Positions 4,551-20,588 of a DNA stretch of 24,692 nt are shown here, piece after piece. The stretch covers positions 1 through 24,692 of IMG/VR virus record IMGVR_UViG_3300043567_000469. One strand, written 5' to 3'. Position 1 is the first letter of the stretch. Each line of letters opens with the position of its first letter. The position numbers were made by a program, and so were the translations under genes. The notes beneath the pieces are model-generated. The model saw only the letters and a list, made by a program, of their open reading frames with translations. It had not been told where the DNA came from and searched no databases. This DNA is from a virus.

Positions 4551-4622
4551 TTGATTACCTTGTAATTATACTGCCTGCATCAGGCGGTTCGGGAACCAGT
4601 GTGCCACTTTGGGAGCTGGCAC
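4551..4622 (-). promoter_or_regulatory. Terminator-promoter module 3 (leader class A)
   Basis: On the minus strand a GTGCCA...TGGCAC dyad (4622-4601) is followed by two small hairpins (GGTT/AACC and GCCTG/CAGGC), then TATAAT at 4570-4565 and the leader TACAAGGTAATCAAC. Unusually, the last codons and the TAA stop of the metallopeptidase-like gene run right through the module, so the stop codon is part of the -10 box. Confidence 0.6.
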
Positions 4623-5063
4623 ACCCTGTTTATCAATTAAGTACTCCACATATAGGGTTTCTTCTTGCTCTCGTGCCTCTATTTCGTGTGGTTGATGCCA
4701 ATAGTCGTAATCTTCCATACATTCTTTACCATAATACATTTTTCCACGTTTCTGGCGGAGAGAACCGACTACCCACTGCCTCAGGTGGGTCAGTTCGTGA
4801 AAAAGAGTTTTTATATACAACTCCTCATCCATATAGGTATTCAGTTCAATCAGGAACTCTCTGGGGCGGTAGGTTTCGCCCAGAACATCACACCACCCAT
4901 AAACACCCTCACGCCTCAATCCACGGTGAACAATCTCAACATAGATTTTGTGGCGTGGAAAGAACTTATTCAAAAACCAAGAGGTAACATCTTCGCAAGT
5001 GCGCTTGCGAAAACCATATCCAGAAATAGCGATGACAGATTGCATAACCAGTGCATAAACCAA
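4566..5063 (-). CDS. Putative zinc metallopeptidase (HExxH)
   Basis: This protein of about 165 residues has HELTHLRQW near residues 89-97, a classic HExxH zinc site. About 35 residues later a second conserved acidic stretch, HEIEAREQEE, could supply the third ligand, as in SprT-like and related gluzincin folds. The substrate is unknown. The frame extends to a TTG at 5063 (MVYALVMQSV); an ATG at 5045 is the alternative start, and neither has a good ribosome site. The last 19 or so residues are encoded by module 3, suggesting that the module was inserted at, or has evolved into, the gene end. It is the last gene of its transcription unit. Confidence 0.7.
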   Translation of the reverse strand: MVYALVMQSVIAISGYGFRKRTCEDVTSWFLNKFFPRHKIYVEIVHRGLRREGVYGWCDVLGETYRPREFLIELNTYMDEELYIKTLFHELTHLRQWVVGSLRQKRGKMYYGKECMEDYDYWHQPHEIEAREQEETLYVEYLIDKQGVPAPKVAHWFPNRLMQAV

Positions 5064-5182: not shown

Positions 5183-5608
5183 TCAGCAACCAAACATTAG
5201 AGCACCGAGTCCGGCACCAAAAATACCCCACGAATTACTTCTCTTATTTCCATAAGAATAGTTGTAACTACCAGAGTTACGATTGCGAGTATAGTTAGAA
5301 TTGTAGTTGTATCCGGTTTGACCTGAGAGAGCAGTCGCTAGTCCATAACCAACGGCAGCACCCGCAGCAGGGTTACAAACTCTCTGTCGCTGATAGGTTG
5401 GATTCCAGTTACCACCACTTACCTGATTACAAGGAACATTATAGGATTGAGTCTGAACTCCACCCGGATAGTAGTTTCCGTACTGGTCATAACCACCAGG
5501 AACATATACTTCCTGATATTGAGTACAGACACCGTATTGATTCACTTGCTGTGCCATCACGGGCATTGGGACAAACAGAAGTGCGGAGAGAAGAAGAAGT
5601 TTTTTCAT
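5183..5608 (-). CDS. Exported Tyr/Asn/Gly-rich protein, 141 aa
   Basis: From the ATG at 5608 the protein starts with a classic Sec signal peptide, MKKLLLLSALLFVPMPVMA, with cleavage likely before QQVNQ. The mature part is rich in Tyr, Asn, Gln and Gly, contains CTQYQEVYVPGGYDQYGNYY, and has four cysteines. Near residue 93 and at the C-terminus are glycine-zipper-like segments (AAGAAVGYGLATAL and FGAGLGALMFG). This suggests a periplasmic or envelope-associated protein made during infection. The start is supported by the 4-nt ATGA overlap; a longer frame to 5635 would lose the signal peptide layout. Similar exported proteins exist in cyanophages as I remember them. Role unknown. Confidence 0.8.
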   Translation of the reverse strand: MKKLLLLSALLFVPMPVMAQQVNQYGVCTQYQEVYVPGGYDQYGNYYPGGVQTQSYNVPCNQVSGGNWNPTYQRQRVCNPAAGAAVGYGLATALSGQTGYNYNSNYTRNRNSGSYNYSYGNKRSNSWGIFGAGLGALMFGC

Positions 5609-6051
5609 TTTGCGTACAGATAGGAACCTGCCCAATCGGCATTTTCAAACAACCATTCACGCTGCTCAATAATGCGAAGGTCATAACGAACACCTTTGGC
5701 AGGAGACTTGAACGATGCTGCTTTATAAATCTCTCCAGTTTTCTTATCCACAAAAGCGTGAACAGACCTTTGTCCAGCAGCATTCATAATGATTTTGTGA
5801 TACTTCTTACCAGACTCAAAAGTGAAGTCATAATCACACTTACCATTCTTCAGGTCGGTGATGCAGGCATCGTGGTACTCTACATCAGATGTGCGAAGTG
5901 CGTGAGAACGAATACTGTAGTCAATAAAGTTCTGTCGCAGTGCCTCACACAGTTGCCAGCAATACTTAACAACATTCAGTTGGATGGTATTCTGGGCATC
6001 ACGTTGAGCACAGAAGTCACTGAAATCCTTGGTGAGAAAAACAGAAGTCAT
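5605..6051 (-). CDS. Conserved cyanophage hypothetical protein, 148 aa
   Basis: The frame starts MTSVFLTKDFSDFCAQRDAQ. The C-terminal half, around KYHKIIMNAAGQRSVHAFVD then KTGEIYKAASFKSPAKGVRY and the tail ENADWAGSYLYAK, matches a conserved cyanophage protein I remember, still of unknown function. It leads the block after module 4, with the TATAAT 22 nt upstream of the ATG. It overlaps the exported protein gene by 4 nt. Confidence 0.8.
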   Translation of the reverse strand: MTSVFLTKDFSDFCAQRDAQNTIQLNVVKYCWQLCEALRQNFIDYSIRSHALRTSDVEYHDACITDLKNGKCDYDFTFESGKKYHKIIMNAAGQRSVHAFVDKKTGEIYKAASFKSPAKGVRYDLRIIEQREWLFENADWAGSYLYAK

Positions 6052-6059
6052 CGGGTTCG

Positions 6060-6127
6060 TTGCGTATGAAAGTATTATAGGGCATCCAGAGGGGTCTGGA
6101 GTGCCCTGTGTGCCAGTTCTTCAAGTG
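6060..6127 (-). promoter_or_regulatory. Terminator-promoter module 4 (leader class B)
   Basis: On the minus strand TGGACACTTGAAGAACTGGC begins inside the methyltransferase stop region. A long hairpin follows (GGGCA-CCAGA...TCTGG-TGCCC, plus 6080-6106), then TATAAT at 6079-6074 and the leader ACTTTCATACGCAA. The leader matches modules 6 and 8. It separates the nuclease/methyltransferase block from the next one. Confidence 0.65.
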
Positions 6128-6795
6128 TCCATAAAGGACAAAATACTTTCACTTTGTTCATAGATTCTGTTCTTAGTCATTGCAAAATATTCTGCGTTCA
6201 TTTCAATTCCAATGAAGTTTCTACCGCATTGCTTAGCAGCAACACCAATCGCACCACTTCCCATACAAGGATCCAATACTGTATCACCCACATTTGAACT
6301 TGCCTCAATCAACCTTGACATAAGTTTGACTGGTTTAGGTGTGGGGTGGTCTTTATAATGTTCAATAGGATTACGCCATACTGCAGACTTACAGTGCTCA
6401 TTAAATACTGCTCCGGACTTTTTAGCAAACACACAGTTCTCTATGCTGGAGAGCCAGATATATTGCCCATTCATCGGAGAAGGATTGGTTTTTTCCCATA
6501 TACAGTGTCTTACAGATAATCCGTGATCTATCAGGCGACTGCGAATATGTGATACTTGAACTGAACCGCAAAAGATATAAATGCTCCCAGAAGTCACACG
6601 AACAACTTCATCGATAAAGTCATCCAGTGGAAATGTAATGATATCTGCGTGACTCTTATCCAGATTTCTTAATCCACCACTCTTACGATTTACCTCATCA
6701 TATGGTATATCTGTAAGAGTAAGCGAAATGCTCCCGTCAGCAAGTGATGGGAGTACATTCATACAATTATCGTTATAAAGTTTTACATCATTCAT
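6121..6795 (-). CDS. DNA methyltransferase (N4/N6 type, beta class)
   Basis: The 224-residue protein has the catalytic motif TDIPYDE at residues 28-34 (a DPPY variant), HPTPKPV at 150-156, and the SAM-binding motif DPCMGSGAIG at 175-184. Catalytic motif first and SAM motif last is the beta-class order of N6-adenine and N4-cytosine DNA methyltransferases (Pfam N6_N4_Mtase family). It should methylate a specific DNA site using S-adenosylmethionine; the target is not readable. It is translationally coupled by an 8-nt overlap to the upstream putative nuclease and ends at module 4. It may protect phage DNA from that nuclease or from host restriction. Confidence 0.9.
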   Translation of the reverse strand: MNDVKLYNDNCMNVLPSLADGSISLTLTDIPYDEVNRKSGGLRNLDKSHADIITFPLDDFIDEVVRVTSGSIYIFCGSVQVSHIRSRLIDHGLSVRHCIWEKTNPSPMNGQYIWLSSIENCVFAKKSGAVFNEHCKSAVWRNPIEHYKDHPTPKPVKLMSRLIEASSNVGDTVLDPCMGSGAIGVAAKQCGRNFIGIEMNAEYFAMTKNRIYEQSESILSFMDT

Positions 6796-7414
6796 AGTTG
6801 AAAATTATTGTACTTGGACATACCTTAGTTAGGCGACTCCAATCAATAGGAACACTAATTGTAGTCCAACCGTTGTTTTTTGCATACTTCCTATTTCTCA
6901 TAGAAAATTTACTCTTCTCAAGTCCTTCCTTCAGTTCTTTGCGTAGCACTAGTGCTGCTTTTTTATGTAAAGGGAGGATGTAAAGTATAGCATCATTAAT
7001 CTTGTGGTTGCAAAGTGCCCATCCGGGAACTGGCATTTTATTAGAGTAGAGACCAAAGTCCTGACTCACAATTTCTGCAAGAAAATCATCCCAAGGTGCA
7101 TTTGGATCACGCAACTTATAATCGAGTGTAAATCCTTTCTGAAGAACTTTCCCCGTCTTACAACTCACCAAATCAAAAGAGGCATCAACACCTGCTTTAT
7201 TTCTAAACTTAGAGAAACTATCATCTCCATAATTGTCCTCGAAAGTATCAAAATCTATGCGAATGTTATGACGATTTTGATACTCAACATTCAGTTGGTG
7301 GACAATTGCAAGGTGATCTCCTCTTTCAATAGATTGCCTTTCTTTTTCAAGAGATTGATGAAAATCGTGAACTTTATGATTTTTAAGATAAGGTTGTTGA
7401 ATAGAATAAGTCAT
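6788..7414 (-). CDS. Putative PD-(D/E)XK nuclease beside the methyltransferase
   Basis: The 208-residue frame starts MTYSIQQPYLKNHKVHDFHQ. Around residues 75-102 it reads GVDASFDLVS...FTLDYKLR: an aspartate (D77) ending a strand, then D98-Y-K100 after about 20 residues, which fits the PD-(D/E)XK nuclease core used by many type II restriction enzymes. Its 8-nt overlap with a DNA methyltransferase strengthens a restriction partner role, but that is inference. It could also be a phage nuclease for host DNA breakdown, or an unrelated protein. The start overlaps the upstream stop by 1 nt (TAATG). Confidence 0.5.
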   Translation of the reverse strand: MTYSIQQPYLKNHKVHDFHQSLEKERQSIERGDHLAIVHQLNVEYQNRHNIRIDFDTFEDNYGDDSFSKFRNKAGVDASFDLVSCKTGKVLQKGFTLDYKLRDPNAPWDDFLAEIVSQDFGLYSNKMPVPGWALCNHKINDAILYILPLHKKAALVLRKELKEGLEKSKFSMRNRKYAKNNGWTTISVPIDWSRLTKVCPSTIIFNYE

Positions 7415-7569
7415 TAGAATTTTTGTGGAGGAGGAAGTTTAGGTGCATTCATTTCTACAGTAGTTTTCTGTAGGTTGAGCATCATACCATCTAGGGCACC
7501 AGCAACTGGAGTGAATCCAATCGTCGCAACAATAATACCAAAGATGGTTCCGGAAATGAAATTAATCAT
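7414..7569 (-). CDS. Small membrane protein, 51 aa
   Basis: The frame MINFISGTIFGIIVATIGFT has one transmembrane helix of about 20 residues at the very N-terminus, then a short soluble tail ending KLPPPQKF. Short MINFISG-type membrane proteins recur in T4-like cyanophages as I remember them. It overlaps the upstream gene by 4 nt and the nuclease-like gene by 1 nt. Probably in the host inner membrane; role unknown. Confidence 0.75.
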   Translation of the reverse strand: MINFISGTIFGIIVATIGFTPVAGALDGMMLNLQKTTVEMNAPKLPPPQKF

Positions 7570-15754: not shown

Positions 15755-16813
15755 TCAGAGCAGTTGAATTGCTTCAGTTTCTCCTTCGATTTGAGGAGCA
15801 GCCCACAATTCAAGAGGGAGTTCATCAAGAGACACAGTAGGAGGAGTAATCATACCCCCAAACTGAGCGTGAAGCTTCTCACAGTAGAAGTTGATAGGTC
15901 CGAGAAACACTTCTTCCATAACCTTGACAATTTCGTCGCGTTCTGCTTCGATGTCAGATTCGTGCTCGGCATAACTGTTACAAATTACGCGAACCGATTC
16001 ACCCTTTCGCCAGGCAGATATCGCCCACTTGAGAATGTCTCCAGCATAACGATAAGTAAACTGAGAGTCAAGAATCTTGTGTCGGGTTGCAACTCCATCA
16101 ATAGAGGAGTAATTGTTAGAACCAAACATAGGATTTACTTTAATCCATTGCTTGATTTCTTCTTTAGTTGTGTTAAAAACTTTGGTTGATTTAGTCTTTC
16201 TATCTAGAATAGCGTTTTCAATTGCCGTGATGACAGGTTTGTGAGCATACCGCGAAGTAATGCCACAGATGTCTAGCAATTCCCTGACAACATCACGAGT
16301 CAGAGGAAGACTCTCATCTTCGATAACCAACTTCACAACGTTGATGAAGTCATTCTGAACTGCATTTACCGTACCATCAATTGCATTGGCATACAAACCC
16401 ATCAAACTTAAAGCAGAATTGTGAGAAAGATTGTCGTAAAGTTCGTTACCGGTATCCTTTCGCACATACAACGCAACAGGAACGGAGTGATAGTTGTTCT
16501 CCTTCACTGCCTTCAGAAGGTGACGGTGGTCGAACAAACTCTCATTGCCATCGTCATCTACAAAGACACTAAATGGCCACTGTTTGACTGCCCATCCTTC
16601 TTTTGTTGATGCGATCAGAACATCCAGATTGCCTTTGGCAAGTTCAGTCTTGCGGGGATAGTTGGCAGTTGTGGGAACGATTTTGGAAGTTAATCGTGGA
16701 ACGAAGTTATCGTCAATTAACTGTAGTAGTGGGTATTGAGGTCCGTCTTCAGCAGTAACCTCAACACTATGAACAGGAAAAACCTGTCCTGAGTGAACTT
16801 TAATTTTTTTCAT
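15755..16813 (-). CDS. ParB-like (ParB/Srx domain) protein, 352 aa
   Basis: The N-terminal 140 residues contain a region near 86-112 reading GNESLFDHRHLLKAVKENNY then SVPVALYVRKD. This fits the ParB/sulfiredoxin-fold pattern of a turn, a short helix and the following strand (DHRHLLKA in place of the usual G-x-x-R). The long C-terminal part is helical and not recognised. ParB-fold proteins can bind DNA, act as nucleases or hydrolyse CTP; which applies is unknown. It is a single-gene unit preceded by a near-consensus sigma-70 promoter and followed by module 6. It may be an early regulatory or nuclease protein. Confidence 0.6.
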   Translation of the reverse strand: MKKIKVHSGQVFPVHSVEVTAEDGPQYPLLQLIDDNFVPRLTSKIVPTTANYPRKTELAKGNLDVLIASTKEGWAVKQWPFSVFVDDDGNESLFDHRHLLKAVKENNYHSVPVALYVRKDTGNELYDNLSHNSALSLMGLYANAIDGTVNAVQNDFINVVKLVIEDESLPLTRDVVRELLDICGITSRYAHKPVITAIENAILDRKTKSTKVFNTTKEEIKQWIKVNPMFGSNNYSSIDGVATRHKILDSQFTYRYAGDILKWAISAWRKGESVRVICNSYAEHESDIEAERDEIVKVMEEVFLGPINFYCEKLHAQFGGMITPPTVSLDELPLELWAAPQIEGETEAIQLL

Positions 16814-16908: not shown

Positions 16909-17394
16909 TCAATCTGGACACTCTACACCATATTTTATGGCAACTGAAAAGCGGTGTCGATCATAAAAAGATGTTGCTTTATGGAGTAAACTTGCATTAA
17001 AAGCAACTAGGCGATTTGGAATAGGTAGAATTCCATAAAGTCTTTCATCAATAAAAAATTGTGTTTCTCCACCATCATTCAAGTCCCAAGTTTCATTCGG
17101 ATAATATAGAAATGTAACTTCTTCGCTACCCCCATCAGTATGGAAATAAGGATTTTCTGATGGAGCAAAACAATTTATGTACATTCTATACAATTTGAGA
17201 TTTGTAACTAATCCCTTAAGTTTAGTTTCAAATAGATTATAAATTGGTTCAGTTTCTGAAATATTATGTATCATTCCAGTAGGTGGATGATTCTCATCGT
17301 CTGCTTCACCATAAATGTACACAGAAGATTTACAATATTCTAGGACAAAATTAAATTCTTCTTGTGATAGAAAATTATCGGTTACTTCAATCAT
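16909..17394 (-). CDS. 2OG-Fe(II) oxygenase-like protein, 161 aa
   Basis: The fold hallmark is clear: YFHTDG with an H-x-D (H85, D87), a second histidine in LLHKATSF (H138) and RHRFSVAIKY (R148) that would bind 2-oxoglutarate. This matches the prolyl-4-hydroxylase-like 2OG-Fe(II) group; the substrate is unknown. From ATG 17394 it overlaps the preceding, very similar oxygenase by 4 nt, with GAGGGG upstream. The two share many strings (YYPNETWDLxDGGET), so they are likely duplicates. It is the last gene of the four-oxygenase block. Confidence 0.85.
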   Translation of the reverse strand: MIEVTDNFLSQEEFNFVLEYCKSSVYIYGEADDENHPPTGMIHNISETEPIYNLFETKLKGLVTNLKLYRMYINCFAPSENPYFHTDGGSEEVTFLYYPNETWDLNDGGETQFFIDERLYGILPIPNRLVAFNASLLHKATSFYDRHRFSVAIKYGVECPD

Positions 17395-17981
17395 ATGCAC
17401 CCCTCATAATGAATGCCGTACTTTATGGCAATTGAAAAACGATGCCGATTACGAAAGGGTGTTGCCGTATGTTCTAAATTAGCATCAAATGAAATTAAAC
17501 GATTGGGGATTGGTGGGATACCATAAAATCCCCCATCAATAAAAAATTTGGTTTCTCCACCATCATCTAAGTCCCAAGTTTCATTTGGATAATATAGAAA
17601 TGTAGTTCCAACCTCCCCATCGGTATGAAAATAAGACTTTTCTAATGCGGCAAAACAATTGATGTAAATTCTTGTAATATCTTTTGATTTGTACTGTGGA
17701 AATCGAGTTTCTATTGAACTTGAAAATAGATCAAACATTTTTTTTTGATTTATAATTTTCGTAGGGTCTCCTCCAATTAAATGAGATTCTTCTGGTAATG
17801 GATTATCTTCGGTGTAGTGATAAACTTCATGAACTAATCCAGTACAGTATTTAAAATTAGTCACAGAATTAGAGTCTGAACCTCCACCTTCACCATAAAA
17901 ATAAGATGCTTTGATGCAATAGTCTAATATAAAATTATATTCTTCTTTGGTAAAAAAATTATCATAAACATCAATACTCAT
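17391..17981 (-). CDS. 2OG-Fe(II) oxygenase-like protein, 196 aa
   Basis: Motifs: FHTDG with H119-x-D121, the second histidine in LEHTATPF (H171) and RHRFSIAIKY (R181). It has an extra insertion of about 35 residues in the N-terminal half compared with its neighbour (SDSNSVTNFKYCTGLVHEVY). It is predicted to use O2, Fe(II) and 2-oxoglutarate to hydroxylate an unknown target. Overlaps are 4 nt at both ends. The close resemblance to the next gene suggests local duplication. Confidence 0.85.
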   Translation of the reverse strand: MSIDVYDNFFTKEEYNFILDYCIKASYFYGEGGGSDSNSVTNFKYCTGLVHEVYHYTEDNPLPEESHLIGGDPTKIINQKKMFDLFSSSIETRFPQYKSKDITRIYINCFAALEKSYFHTDGEVGTTFLYYPNETWDLDDGGETKFFIDGGFYGIPPIPNRLISFDANLEHTATPFRNRHRFSIAIKYGIHYEGCI

Positions 17982-18634
17982 ATTGATTCATCTCCGTACT
18001 GCAAAACCTTAAGATTCATAGCAATTGTTATACGAGGATAATCTTCAGTATAAACACAAGGATTAACTGAATGTTTAAGATATGATGGAAACATTATGAA
18101 ATCTCCTTCTTCAATTTCCGGTTCATATTTACTATTATATTGATTCCTACCAAACTCAAGTGAAAAGCATCTTAATTGCTCTAGAGGGTCTCTAAAAATA
18201 GGAGGTTTATGTCTGGATTTATCAAATGAAAGAAAATGAATACACGAAAAATGAACCGTATTAAAAGGTCCACTTAGATGATCGTGCTCTTCTTGATATT
18301 CTCCATCAGTATAGCAATTGTACCATATCTCATCAATCATAATTTGATATGTTGAGTCAAAAAAACTATCAAGACATTTTGCGTATTTTTTTTCTAAAAT
18401 TGATTGATATGTATTGTCTTCTCCAAAAAAGATTTCGTTTCCGGATTTTTCTCCAGAGAAAGATGTCTTAAGTTTATGAGTAAACCATCCTTCAGGAATC
18501 GGAAGCTCCTCAGAATCTTTGAGAATCTTTGGAACTAACATTTCTTTTATTTCATCATTATTTTCAACTTTACTGTGAAAAAATGATATTGGAAAAATAG
18601 GAATCCTACTTTGCTTATCAAAATTTTTATCCAT
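17978..18634 (-). CDS. 2OG-Fe(II) oxygenase-like protein, 218 aa
   Basis: A different subfamily from the two following genes. The iron site appears as EEHDHLSGPF (H117-D118-H119) and the distal histidine in FPSYLKHSVNP (H188), with the 2-oxoglutarate arginine in YPRITIAMNL (R201). The arrangement fits the putative 2OG-Fe(II) oxygenase families common in T4-like cyanophages. H-D-H instead of a plain H-x-D/E means the exact ligands are uncertain. It overlaps the upstream gene by 8 nt and the downstream one by 4 nt. Confidence 0.75.
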   Translation of the reverse strand: MDKNFDKQSRIPIFPISFFHSKVENNDEIKEMLVPKILKDSEELPIPEGWFTHKLKTSFSGEKSGNEIFFGEDNTYQSILEKKYAKCLDSFFDSTYQIMIDEIWYNCYTDGEYQEEHDHLSGPFNTVHFSCIHFLSFDKSRHKPPIFRDPLEQLRCFSLEFGRNQYNSKYEPEIEEGDFIMFPSYLKHSVNPCVYTEDYPRITIAMNLKVLQYGDESI

Positions 18635-19319
18635 TCACACAATCTCCAATTTTTACTTTAATATTTCCAGAAATACTTATTCTATAGTCGTCAGAAGTAT
18701 AAAATGGATAAACACTATGATTTAACCAGGATGGAAACATTACCATAGTTCCCTCCCAAGTTTTATCTATAAACAAAGGCAAAGTCTCCATTTCCCCATC
18801 TGGAGAGATGAACTGAAATTCAAATAAAGAATTTAAGGATTCATTTGAATTTTTACAATTTTTATGATTTAACTCATTTGTTAAATCATAAGGAATACGC
18901 ATCCAAATTACAAATGAATAATCTCCTGCGTGAGAATGTCTTGGATTAAATTCGTATTTTTTTTGTAAGTTAATCCAAAGACTTTCAAGTTCATAATTAA
19001 CTTCCTTCTCAAAAAAATCACTATCGTGGTCAAATTTTTTGACAGGATTTAATTGCTCATCCTCTATTACTTGAAAATAACCTTTAGCAACCTCAATGGA
19101 AAAATCCTCAATTAAATGTGAGGATTTAGTGGAAAGTTTATATTCTTCTTCAATATTTCCCGCCAAGTATTCATTCCATTTTTTAAGATTAGATTTATTC
19201 TCCAAAATAAAATCTACATCTTCATTTATTTTTTCAAGTATATCCTCAGGAACTTTTGTCCTAACATAGTATAAGGATGTGATTGGTTCGGCATATATTT
19301 TTAATTGCTCTTGGTTCAT
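18627..19319 (-). CDS. 2OG-Fe(II) oxygenase-like protein, 230 aa
   Basis: The C-terminal half has RHSHAGDYSF (H128 and H130), then FPSWLNHSVYP (H201) and DDYRISISGNI (R213). This parallels the third oxygenase (FPSYLKHSVNP...YPRITIAMN), so the two share a fold. The H-x-H in place of H-x-D is a departure from the classical motif and may mean altered metal binding. The N-terminal half is helical. It leads the block and starts 22 nt after a TATAAT. Confidence 0.7.
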   Translation of the reverse strand: MNQEQLKIYAEPITSLYYVRTKVPEDILEKINEDVDFILENKSNLKKWNEYLAGNIEEEYKLSTKSSHLIEDFSIEVAKGYFQVIEDEQLNPVKKFDHDSDFFEKEVNYELESLWINLQKKYEFNPRHSHAGDYSFVIWMRIPYDLTNELNHKNCKNSNESLNSLFEFQFISPDGEMETLPLFIDKTWEGTMVMFPSWLNHSVYPFYTSDDYRISISGNIKVKIGDCVNG

Positions 19320-19352: not shown

Positions 19353-20588
19353 TCAGCGGGTGATGGTGCTGATTGCCACGTCACCCTTCTGGAAGATAAT
19401 GTCCACCACGTTCTGGACCTTCTGTGCGGTGCTCGTAGATGCCTTGTCAAAGGTCGGGCAGACCACCAGACCATAGGATTTGGTGTAGGAGTCCAGAGCA
19501 CCCGCCTGAAGGGCACCAGAGCGGATCCCAGCGGCATCCTGGGGGTGCAGGCGCAGCGTCCTACCGACCGTTTGACCGATGCCCACGATGTCCATAGAAC
19601 GCATAAACACAACCGCTTCCAGAGCAGAGATGTTGATGCCTTCTGCCAGAATGCTGTGATGAAGAACCACAAACTTCTTGTCGGCATCCTTACCCCACTC
19701 ATTCAGAGTGTCAAAGAACACCTCACGGTTGACTTTCTGACCGTCAATAAATGCACCGTGCTTGGAAGTAATGTGCATCACGGAATAACCCTCTTCTGCC
19801 AGTTGTTCGGCAAAGTCAGATTCGGACAGAAGTTGAATGATATTCTTGGTAGTCTTGGCACAAATCAGAATCTTATCAACAGGATTATCCTGAATAATCT
19901 CAAGCAGATACTCACAGTCCCGTTGACCCACATCCTCACCTTTGATGGAAAGACGAAGTTGCTTGGCAATCACCTTAGGAGGAATGATATAACCGTTCTG
20001 CACCAGTTGAGGAGCAGGAACCTTGGCAATAATCTGACCGTAAACATCAACGTCATTCATACCTGCCTTACCCACAACGGTAGAATATTTGGGAGTTGCG
20101 GTGAAGAAATAGCAACGCTTTGCCTCCGCAGAAAAATGCTCTACGGCAGGAAAGAAGTGACGTTGAATGCTATTGTGTGCCTCGTCAAAGTAGATCGTAT
20201 CCACATCCACATCTGCCTTGGCAAGTTGACCCAAAGAGTTGTAGGTGGTGAAAATCAGTTTGTTCTGAGTGCTGCTATTGACAAACCAATTGATTTTTGA
20301 AGGATTGGTAGAAACAAAGTGATGAGTCTCACCACTATGAACGTGCATCACGGCAGCATTCGTGATAAACTCAAGATACTCAGAAGAAAGTTGTTCGGCA
20401 AGCAGAATGCGAGGAGCAACCACAACAATCACTTTGTTGGTGGCATTCTCAAACTGCTTCGAAGCATCAAAGATACCAACGTTGGTTTTACCACCGCCGG
20501 TAGGGAACACACAAATACCTTTAGAATGCTGCTGGAGAGCATCAAGGGCATCTTGCTGGTGAGGACGAAGTTGAATCACGAATCTCAT
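19353..20588 (-). CDS. SF2 DEAH-box helicase, 411 aa
   Basis: Motifs in order: Walker A FPTGGGKT at 28-35, DEAH at 135-138, TATP at 163-166, and motif VI QTVGRTLR at 339-346. This is a complete superfamily 2 helicase of the SSL2/type III restriction Res group, acting as an ATP-dependent DNA or RNA translocase. T4-like phages carry UvsW of the same superfamily, but size and motif form do not let me equate them. The ATG lies only about 14 nt after the module 8 TATAAT, so its leader is very short. Its sequence uses more G/C than the oxygenases after it. Confidence 0.88.
   Translation of the reverse strand: MRFVIQLRPHQQDALDALQQHSKGICVFPTGGGKTNVGIFDASKQFENATNKVIVVVAPRILLAEQLSSEYLEFITNAAVMHVHSGETHHFVSTNPSKINWFVNSSTQNKLIFTTYNSLGQLAKADVDVDTIYFDEAHNSIQRHFFPAVEHFSAEAKRCYFFTATPKYSTVVGKAGMNDVDVYGQIIAKVPAPQLVQNGYIIPPKVIAKQLRLSIKGEDVGQRDCEYLLEIIQDNPVDKILICAKTTKNIIQLLSESDFAEQLAEEGYSVMHITSKHGAFIDGQKVNREVFFDTLNEWGKDADKKFVVLHHSILAEGINISALEAVVFMRSMDIVGIGQTVGRTLRLHPQDAAGIRSGALQAGALDSYTKSYGLVVCPTFDKASTSTAQKVQNVVDIIFQKGDVAISTITR

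Follow-up and report, generated by a model that had tools for sequence, protein, structure and literature searches.

A probable restriction-modification cassette in a T4-like cyanophage

A 24,692-base IMG/VR virus record (hereinafter, the window), a fragment of a T4-like cyanophage genome, carries two overlapping genes that probably represent an accessory type II-like restriction-modification (R-M) cassette of such phages. One of these genes encodes a 208-aa putative PD-(D/E)XK nuclease, a candidate restriction endonuclease (NU; positions 6788..7414, minus strand; catalytic candidates E25, D77, D98 and K100), and the other one a 224-aa beta-class amino (N6/N4) DNA methyltransferase (MT; 6121..6795, minus strand; motif IV TDIPY, motif I DPCMGSG). 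At the sequence level, the R-M assignment is suggested by the homology of MT, the invariant active-site pattern of NU, the overlapping gene order, the asymmetric co-occurrence of the two genes and the repeated gain and loss of NU. Under the R-M scenario, MT would methylate, probably at adenine, a short site in the replicating phage DNA, and NU would cut the same site when it is unmethylated, the likely targets being the host chromosome and co-infecting phages that lack MT. NU would then be an accessory module that recombination has placed upstream of a methylase otherwise common in phages, and phages with MT only, often accompanied by a ParB-like protein (X), would be protected from rivals that carry NU. 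The R-M scenario leads over the alternatives because homing lacks both a carrier-specific difference in MT and a conserved junction, and a housekeeping nuclease is a poor fit to the frequent loss of NU.

Gene layout and the methylase

The closest annotated DNA relatives of the window are Synechococcus T4-like phages, in particular, S-SRM01 (Kyanoviridae), S-SKS1 and others. The genes in this region are mostly located on the minus strand and are tightly packed. The end of NU and the start of MT overlap by 8 nt (6788..6795, minus strand), and this order and overlap are retained in nearly all MT-linked relatives. Immediately 5' of NU lies a 51-aa ORF (7414..7569, minus strand) whose stop overlaps the NU start (junction TAATG), and 3' of MT, outside the pair, lies a gene with matches to the DUF7717 and PHROG 818 families (5605..6051, minus strand). 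The coordinates, strand, protein lengths (208 and 224 aa), 8-nt overlap, D77, D98, Y99, K100 and both methylase motifs are exactly those given in the initial annotation.

MT belongs to the N6_N4_Mtase family (Pfam, E=2.4e-28) and matches a PHROG DNA methyltransferase family (7e-60), in full agreement with the beta-class assignment made at first. As expected of a type II R-M system, NU thus adjoins a DNA methyltransferase in which the catalytic motifs (IV, residues 28-32; I, residues 175-181) are intact. The aspartate in the first position of motif IV presumably points to adenine as the methylated base, given the general features of this family. The relatives of MT in the PDB include MboIIA, DpnA-type and CcrM structures; derivation of the methylation site from such relatives (the Helicobacter pylori DpnA-like enzyme and MboIIA) was abandoned because the identity is too low.

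The predicted nuclease

Searches of Pfam, NCBIfam, PADLOC, PHROGs and PDB sequences yielded nothing significant for NU, so that these libraries show neither kinship to a known restriction enzyme nor membership in a non-nuclease family. When phage genomes were searched with tblastn, the sole match, at E=2e-4, was to a tail/baseplate region of Pseudomonas phage PG1 that carries the annotation DNA circularization protein; this match was taken to be fortuitous or unrelated. In an alignment of 25 NU sequences, where most relatives show 57-75% identity to the protein from the window and one shows 37%, E25, G75, D77, D98, K100 and E114 are invariant, and because of this, the NU motif, as judged by conservation, is more than a chance resemblance. 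R102, D110, D119, G131 and W132 are invariant in this alignment as well, and the equivalent motif columns are also invariant in a separate alignment of six sequences led by the most divergent relative (36% identity).

The AlphaFold model of NU (pLDDT 85, pTM 0.81) places D77 where a beta strand (78-84) begins, and D98 and K100 in the next strand (90-101), i.e. an acidic residue and a (D/E)xK motif on adjacent strands, the layout expected of the PD-(D/E)XK superfamily. The best Foldseek matches of this model in the PDB are BglI, I-Ssp6803I, the SPARDA nuclease and RecU, followed at a lower rank by HinP1I; each of these is a PD-(D/E)XK enzyme, so that the top true-fold matches come from this superfamily. 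These matches are weak, with low TM-scores, the best E-value of 0.008 and none below 0.001 among the PDB structures. Taken together, the layout of the model, the fold neighbours and the invariant residues provide good support for a predicted PD-(D/E)XK fold. Hence, by prediction, MT is paired with a protein that has the nuclease fold and catalytic residues typical of a type II R-M partner; the core proposed in the initial annotation is present in the predicted structure.

The reading frame of NU is intact in all informative contigs, where no decayed copies were seen, and the gene is subject to purifying selection (dN/dS of about 0.05-0.2 at moderate divergence).

Asymmetric linkage of the nuclease and the methylase

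When only the NU alignment was used as the query, 35 viral contigs were detected, two of which end within NU, leaving 33 informative ones. In 31 of the 33, MT overlaps the 3' end of NU. The other two (L110/L111) represent one lineage with a divergent NU whose 5' end overlaps the end of an unrelated gene that encodes a CPPYYD motif and matches PADLOC MTase_II (1.6e-7), a PHROG (1.8e-6) and Pfam (5e-4, below the cut-off); these profile matches, weak but consistent, suggest that this neighbour is methylase-like. Thus, as expected of R-M, the nuclease gene does not occur without a methylase: MT or the methylase-like gene is adjacent in 33/33 informative contigs. The self-protection postulated in the initial annotation stands in this weak sense, of constant adjacency, whereas a specificity shared by the two enzymes is a conjecture. 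Conversely, MT (at least 70% identity) is found without NU in 22 informative contigs and, clearly, has a role without NU. A restriction nuclease requires its methylase, whereas a methylase can stand alone; given that NU is never found without a methylase or methylase-like gene in the informative contigs and MT is often alone, the pattern fits R-M.

The NU-MT unit is embedded in about ten or more contexts of neighbour genes. The identities of NU and MT are uncorrelated across relatives (Spearman 0.09), and the contigs L099 and L104 combine almost identical MTs with NUs from different clades. A strictly co-evolving pair was accordingly rejected, as the identity-correlation test found none. The lack of visible co-evolution can be reconciled with R-M only on the condition that a single site is recognised by all NU alleles.

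Gain and loss of the nuclease gene

One relative, L025, differs from the window by the precise absence of NU: the 51-aa ORF is directly followed by MT, and the DNA homology stops and resumes at the borders of NU. On the MT tree, the presence of NU changes about ten times, of which at least six fall on well-supported branches, so that six is the minimum number of gains or losses of NU. NU is therefore a dispensable, single-gene cassette, often gained or lost, an unstable member of its own transcription unit. The earlier contention that this is not a stray insertion, based on the shared transcription unit, does not survive the exact absence of NU in L025, the frequent gain and loss, and the numerous occurrences of MT alone or with a ParB-like partner.

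The comparison of L025 with the window reveals a dispensable gene flanked by conserved ones, which is what would be expected of a free-standing (intergenic) homing endonuclease, and for this reason, homing is the strongest rival to R-M. Such a selfish NU would cut the flanking gene in phages without NU and copy itself in. Apart from the precision and the repeated turnover of the cassette, the swapping of NU alleles in front of near-identical MTs is in line with this possibility, as is the second PDB fold match, the PD-(D/E)XK homing enzyme I-Ssp6803I. Cyanophages are known to contain free-standing homing endonucleases inserted in the intervals of conserved genes (PMC6083498, PMC3037559), but decayed homing genes are also reported there (PMC3037559), unlike the uniformly intact NU. 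Furthermore, there are no fixed differences in MT between phages with and without NU, so that a site inside MT would be cut in the carriers too, and no alteration of the target that would make the carriers immune is apparent; on these grounds, homing into MT was dropped as the leading model. On the other side of NU, the upstream neighbour varies across about ten contexts, among which no common upstream junction, and hence no common insertion site, was found, and NU adjoins a methylase-like gene even in the lineage without MT. All considered, homing appears unlikely.

The same observations bear on the possibility that NU is a phage DNA-processing nuclease, either a RecU-like junction resolvase or a general nuclease that attacks host DNA, and that it overlaps MT simply because genes in an operon are packed closely. 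Enzymes of this sort are required by T4-like phages, the neighbouring genes are indeed tightly packed and RecU structures are among the fold matches, but with E=0.13, TM<0.4 and no family match, NU shows no strong match to a RecU-type resolvase in particular. For an important enzyme, one would not expect six or more gains and losses among close relatives, nor a constant association with a methylase across about ten genomic contexts, and a 188-kb phage contig with MT and X contains no NU anywhere along its length. A DNA-processing role is, accordingly, quite unlikely.

A bacterial origin of the cassette was considered as well. No match was found in plasmids, and a genome scan gave a single contig, in a Bacteriovorax-labelled MAG, that was taken as phage contamination given its phage-like neighbours. 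This contig (L098, DDIK01000135.1) carries an NU-MT-X triad, with neighbours matching phage loci, and was probably assigned to the MAG through a binning error.

A ParB-like protein in loci without the nuclease

In many loci without NU, a gene for a protein of roughly 335 aa, X, is located just 3' of MT (e.g. L025:4773-5777, L041:4788-5786 and relatives). X belongs to PHROG 27790 (unknown function), and its N-terminal part is predicted to adopt a ParB/sulfiredoxin fold. Among the contigs with enough flanking sequence, X is present in 2 of the 26 with NU vs 11 of the 17 without it, a near-exclusion (Fisher p of about 1e-4, relatedness not corrected) that could be construed to mean that NU and X are alternative partners of MT, with NU functioning as an accessory subunit or regulator rather than as an active nuclease. 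However, NU retains every one of the PD-(D/E)XK catalytic residues without variation, and NU, MT and X occur together in three divergent loci (L064, L098 and L165), which makes such a role very unlikely. Another ORF in the window (352 aa, 15755-16813, minus strand) contains a stretch that looks ParB-like (DHRHLLKAVKENNYHSVPV); it has no match in Pfam or PHROG and, by tblastn, is unrelated to X.

A second nuclease-methylase pair

The cultured phage S-SKS1 encodes a 176-aa protein, SWZG_00206, that contains the pattern SPDF...DIECKSS and whose gene overlaps the gene for the DNA methylase SWZG_00205. Relatives of SWZG_00206 (NU2) were identified in 41 viral contigs and in the cultured phages S-CAM4 and ACG-2014j, with P49-D50 and E64-x-K66 invariant. 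A methylase (MT2) follows NU2 in 40 of the 41 contigs, overlapping it in 25 and separated from it by one gene in 15; the remaining contig ends before the position of MT2. Judging by its motif, NU2 seems to be a second PD-(D/E)XK-like family, apparently unrelated to NU, that is linked to a methylase in phages of this type. The genes between NU2 and MT2 (in 15 of the 41 contigs L114-L154) encode one of several unrelated proteins of 317-500 aa, i.e. a fixed insertion point with variable cargo; some of these look ParB-like, and one has a weak match to the DpnI_C helix-turn-helix.

A broader and much more tentative proposition, which we consider possible but rather doubtful, is that such pairs are exchangeable cassettes in a restriction-based competition among T4-like cyanophages: unrelated PD-(D/E)XK nucleases, NU and NU2, each tied to a methylase, would be swapped at many sites, whereas in sister phages the methylase would be retained without the nuclease, in many cases together with the ParB-like protein, and would serve as an ‘antidote’ when a relative with the nuclease infects the same cell.

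Relation to known systems

Complete R-M systems are rare in phages, with 9 found in 831 genomes (PMC4176335). The type II R-M systems of chloroviruses, for which degradation of host DNA by the packaged enzymes has been suggested, similarly consist of a virus-encoded nuclease gene next to a methylase gene, and these viruses also possess orphan methylases (PMC7019647), but these systems operate in eukaryotic algal hosts and their enzymes are characterised, whereas NU has no detected sequence similarity to any solved enzyme. Another precedent is the marseillevirus GATC R-M, where the nuclease gene was missed by domain searches, lies beside an adenine methylase and shows a patchy distribution; exclusion of rivals was proposed for it, and no degradation of host DNA was seen (PMC7253447). 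In marseilleviruses, both genes come and go together, whereas in the case of NU-MT, the methylase persists without the nuclease. With type II restriction endonucleases such as BglI and HinP1I, NU shares the predicted fold and the catalytic pattern, without a sequence match. Homing endonucleases of the free-standing kind, such as F-CphI, which occur in T4-like phages and in cyanophages, are likewise intergenic single-gene cassettes polymorphic for presence and absence (PMC6083498), but the catalytic motif of F-CphI differs from that of NU, and no systematic pairing with methylases is known for homing genes. MT without NU is equivalent to an orphan phage DNA methyltransferase; in the window phage, its gene and that of a candidate nuclease overlap.

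Should NU-MT and NU2-MT2 prove active, widespread cyanophages would possess restriction enzymes of their own, in nuclease families that annotation misses. The retention of orphan methylases by phages could then be explained as protection against the nucleases of other phages and not only against host restriction. The presence of the second pair in the cultured phage S-SKS1 makes it testable at once.

Two further groups of genes in the window are worth recording. A 165-aa ORF (4566-5063, minus strand) matches PHROG 10499 and, weakly, SprT/DUF6782, and contains a HELTH-like zinc-peptidase motif. Four successive ORFs (16909-19319, minus strand) resemble 2OG-Fe(II) oxygenases by eye and are adjoined by a ResIII-type helicase (19353-20588).
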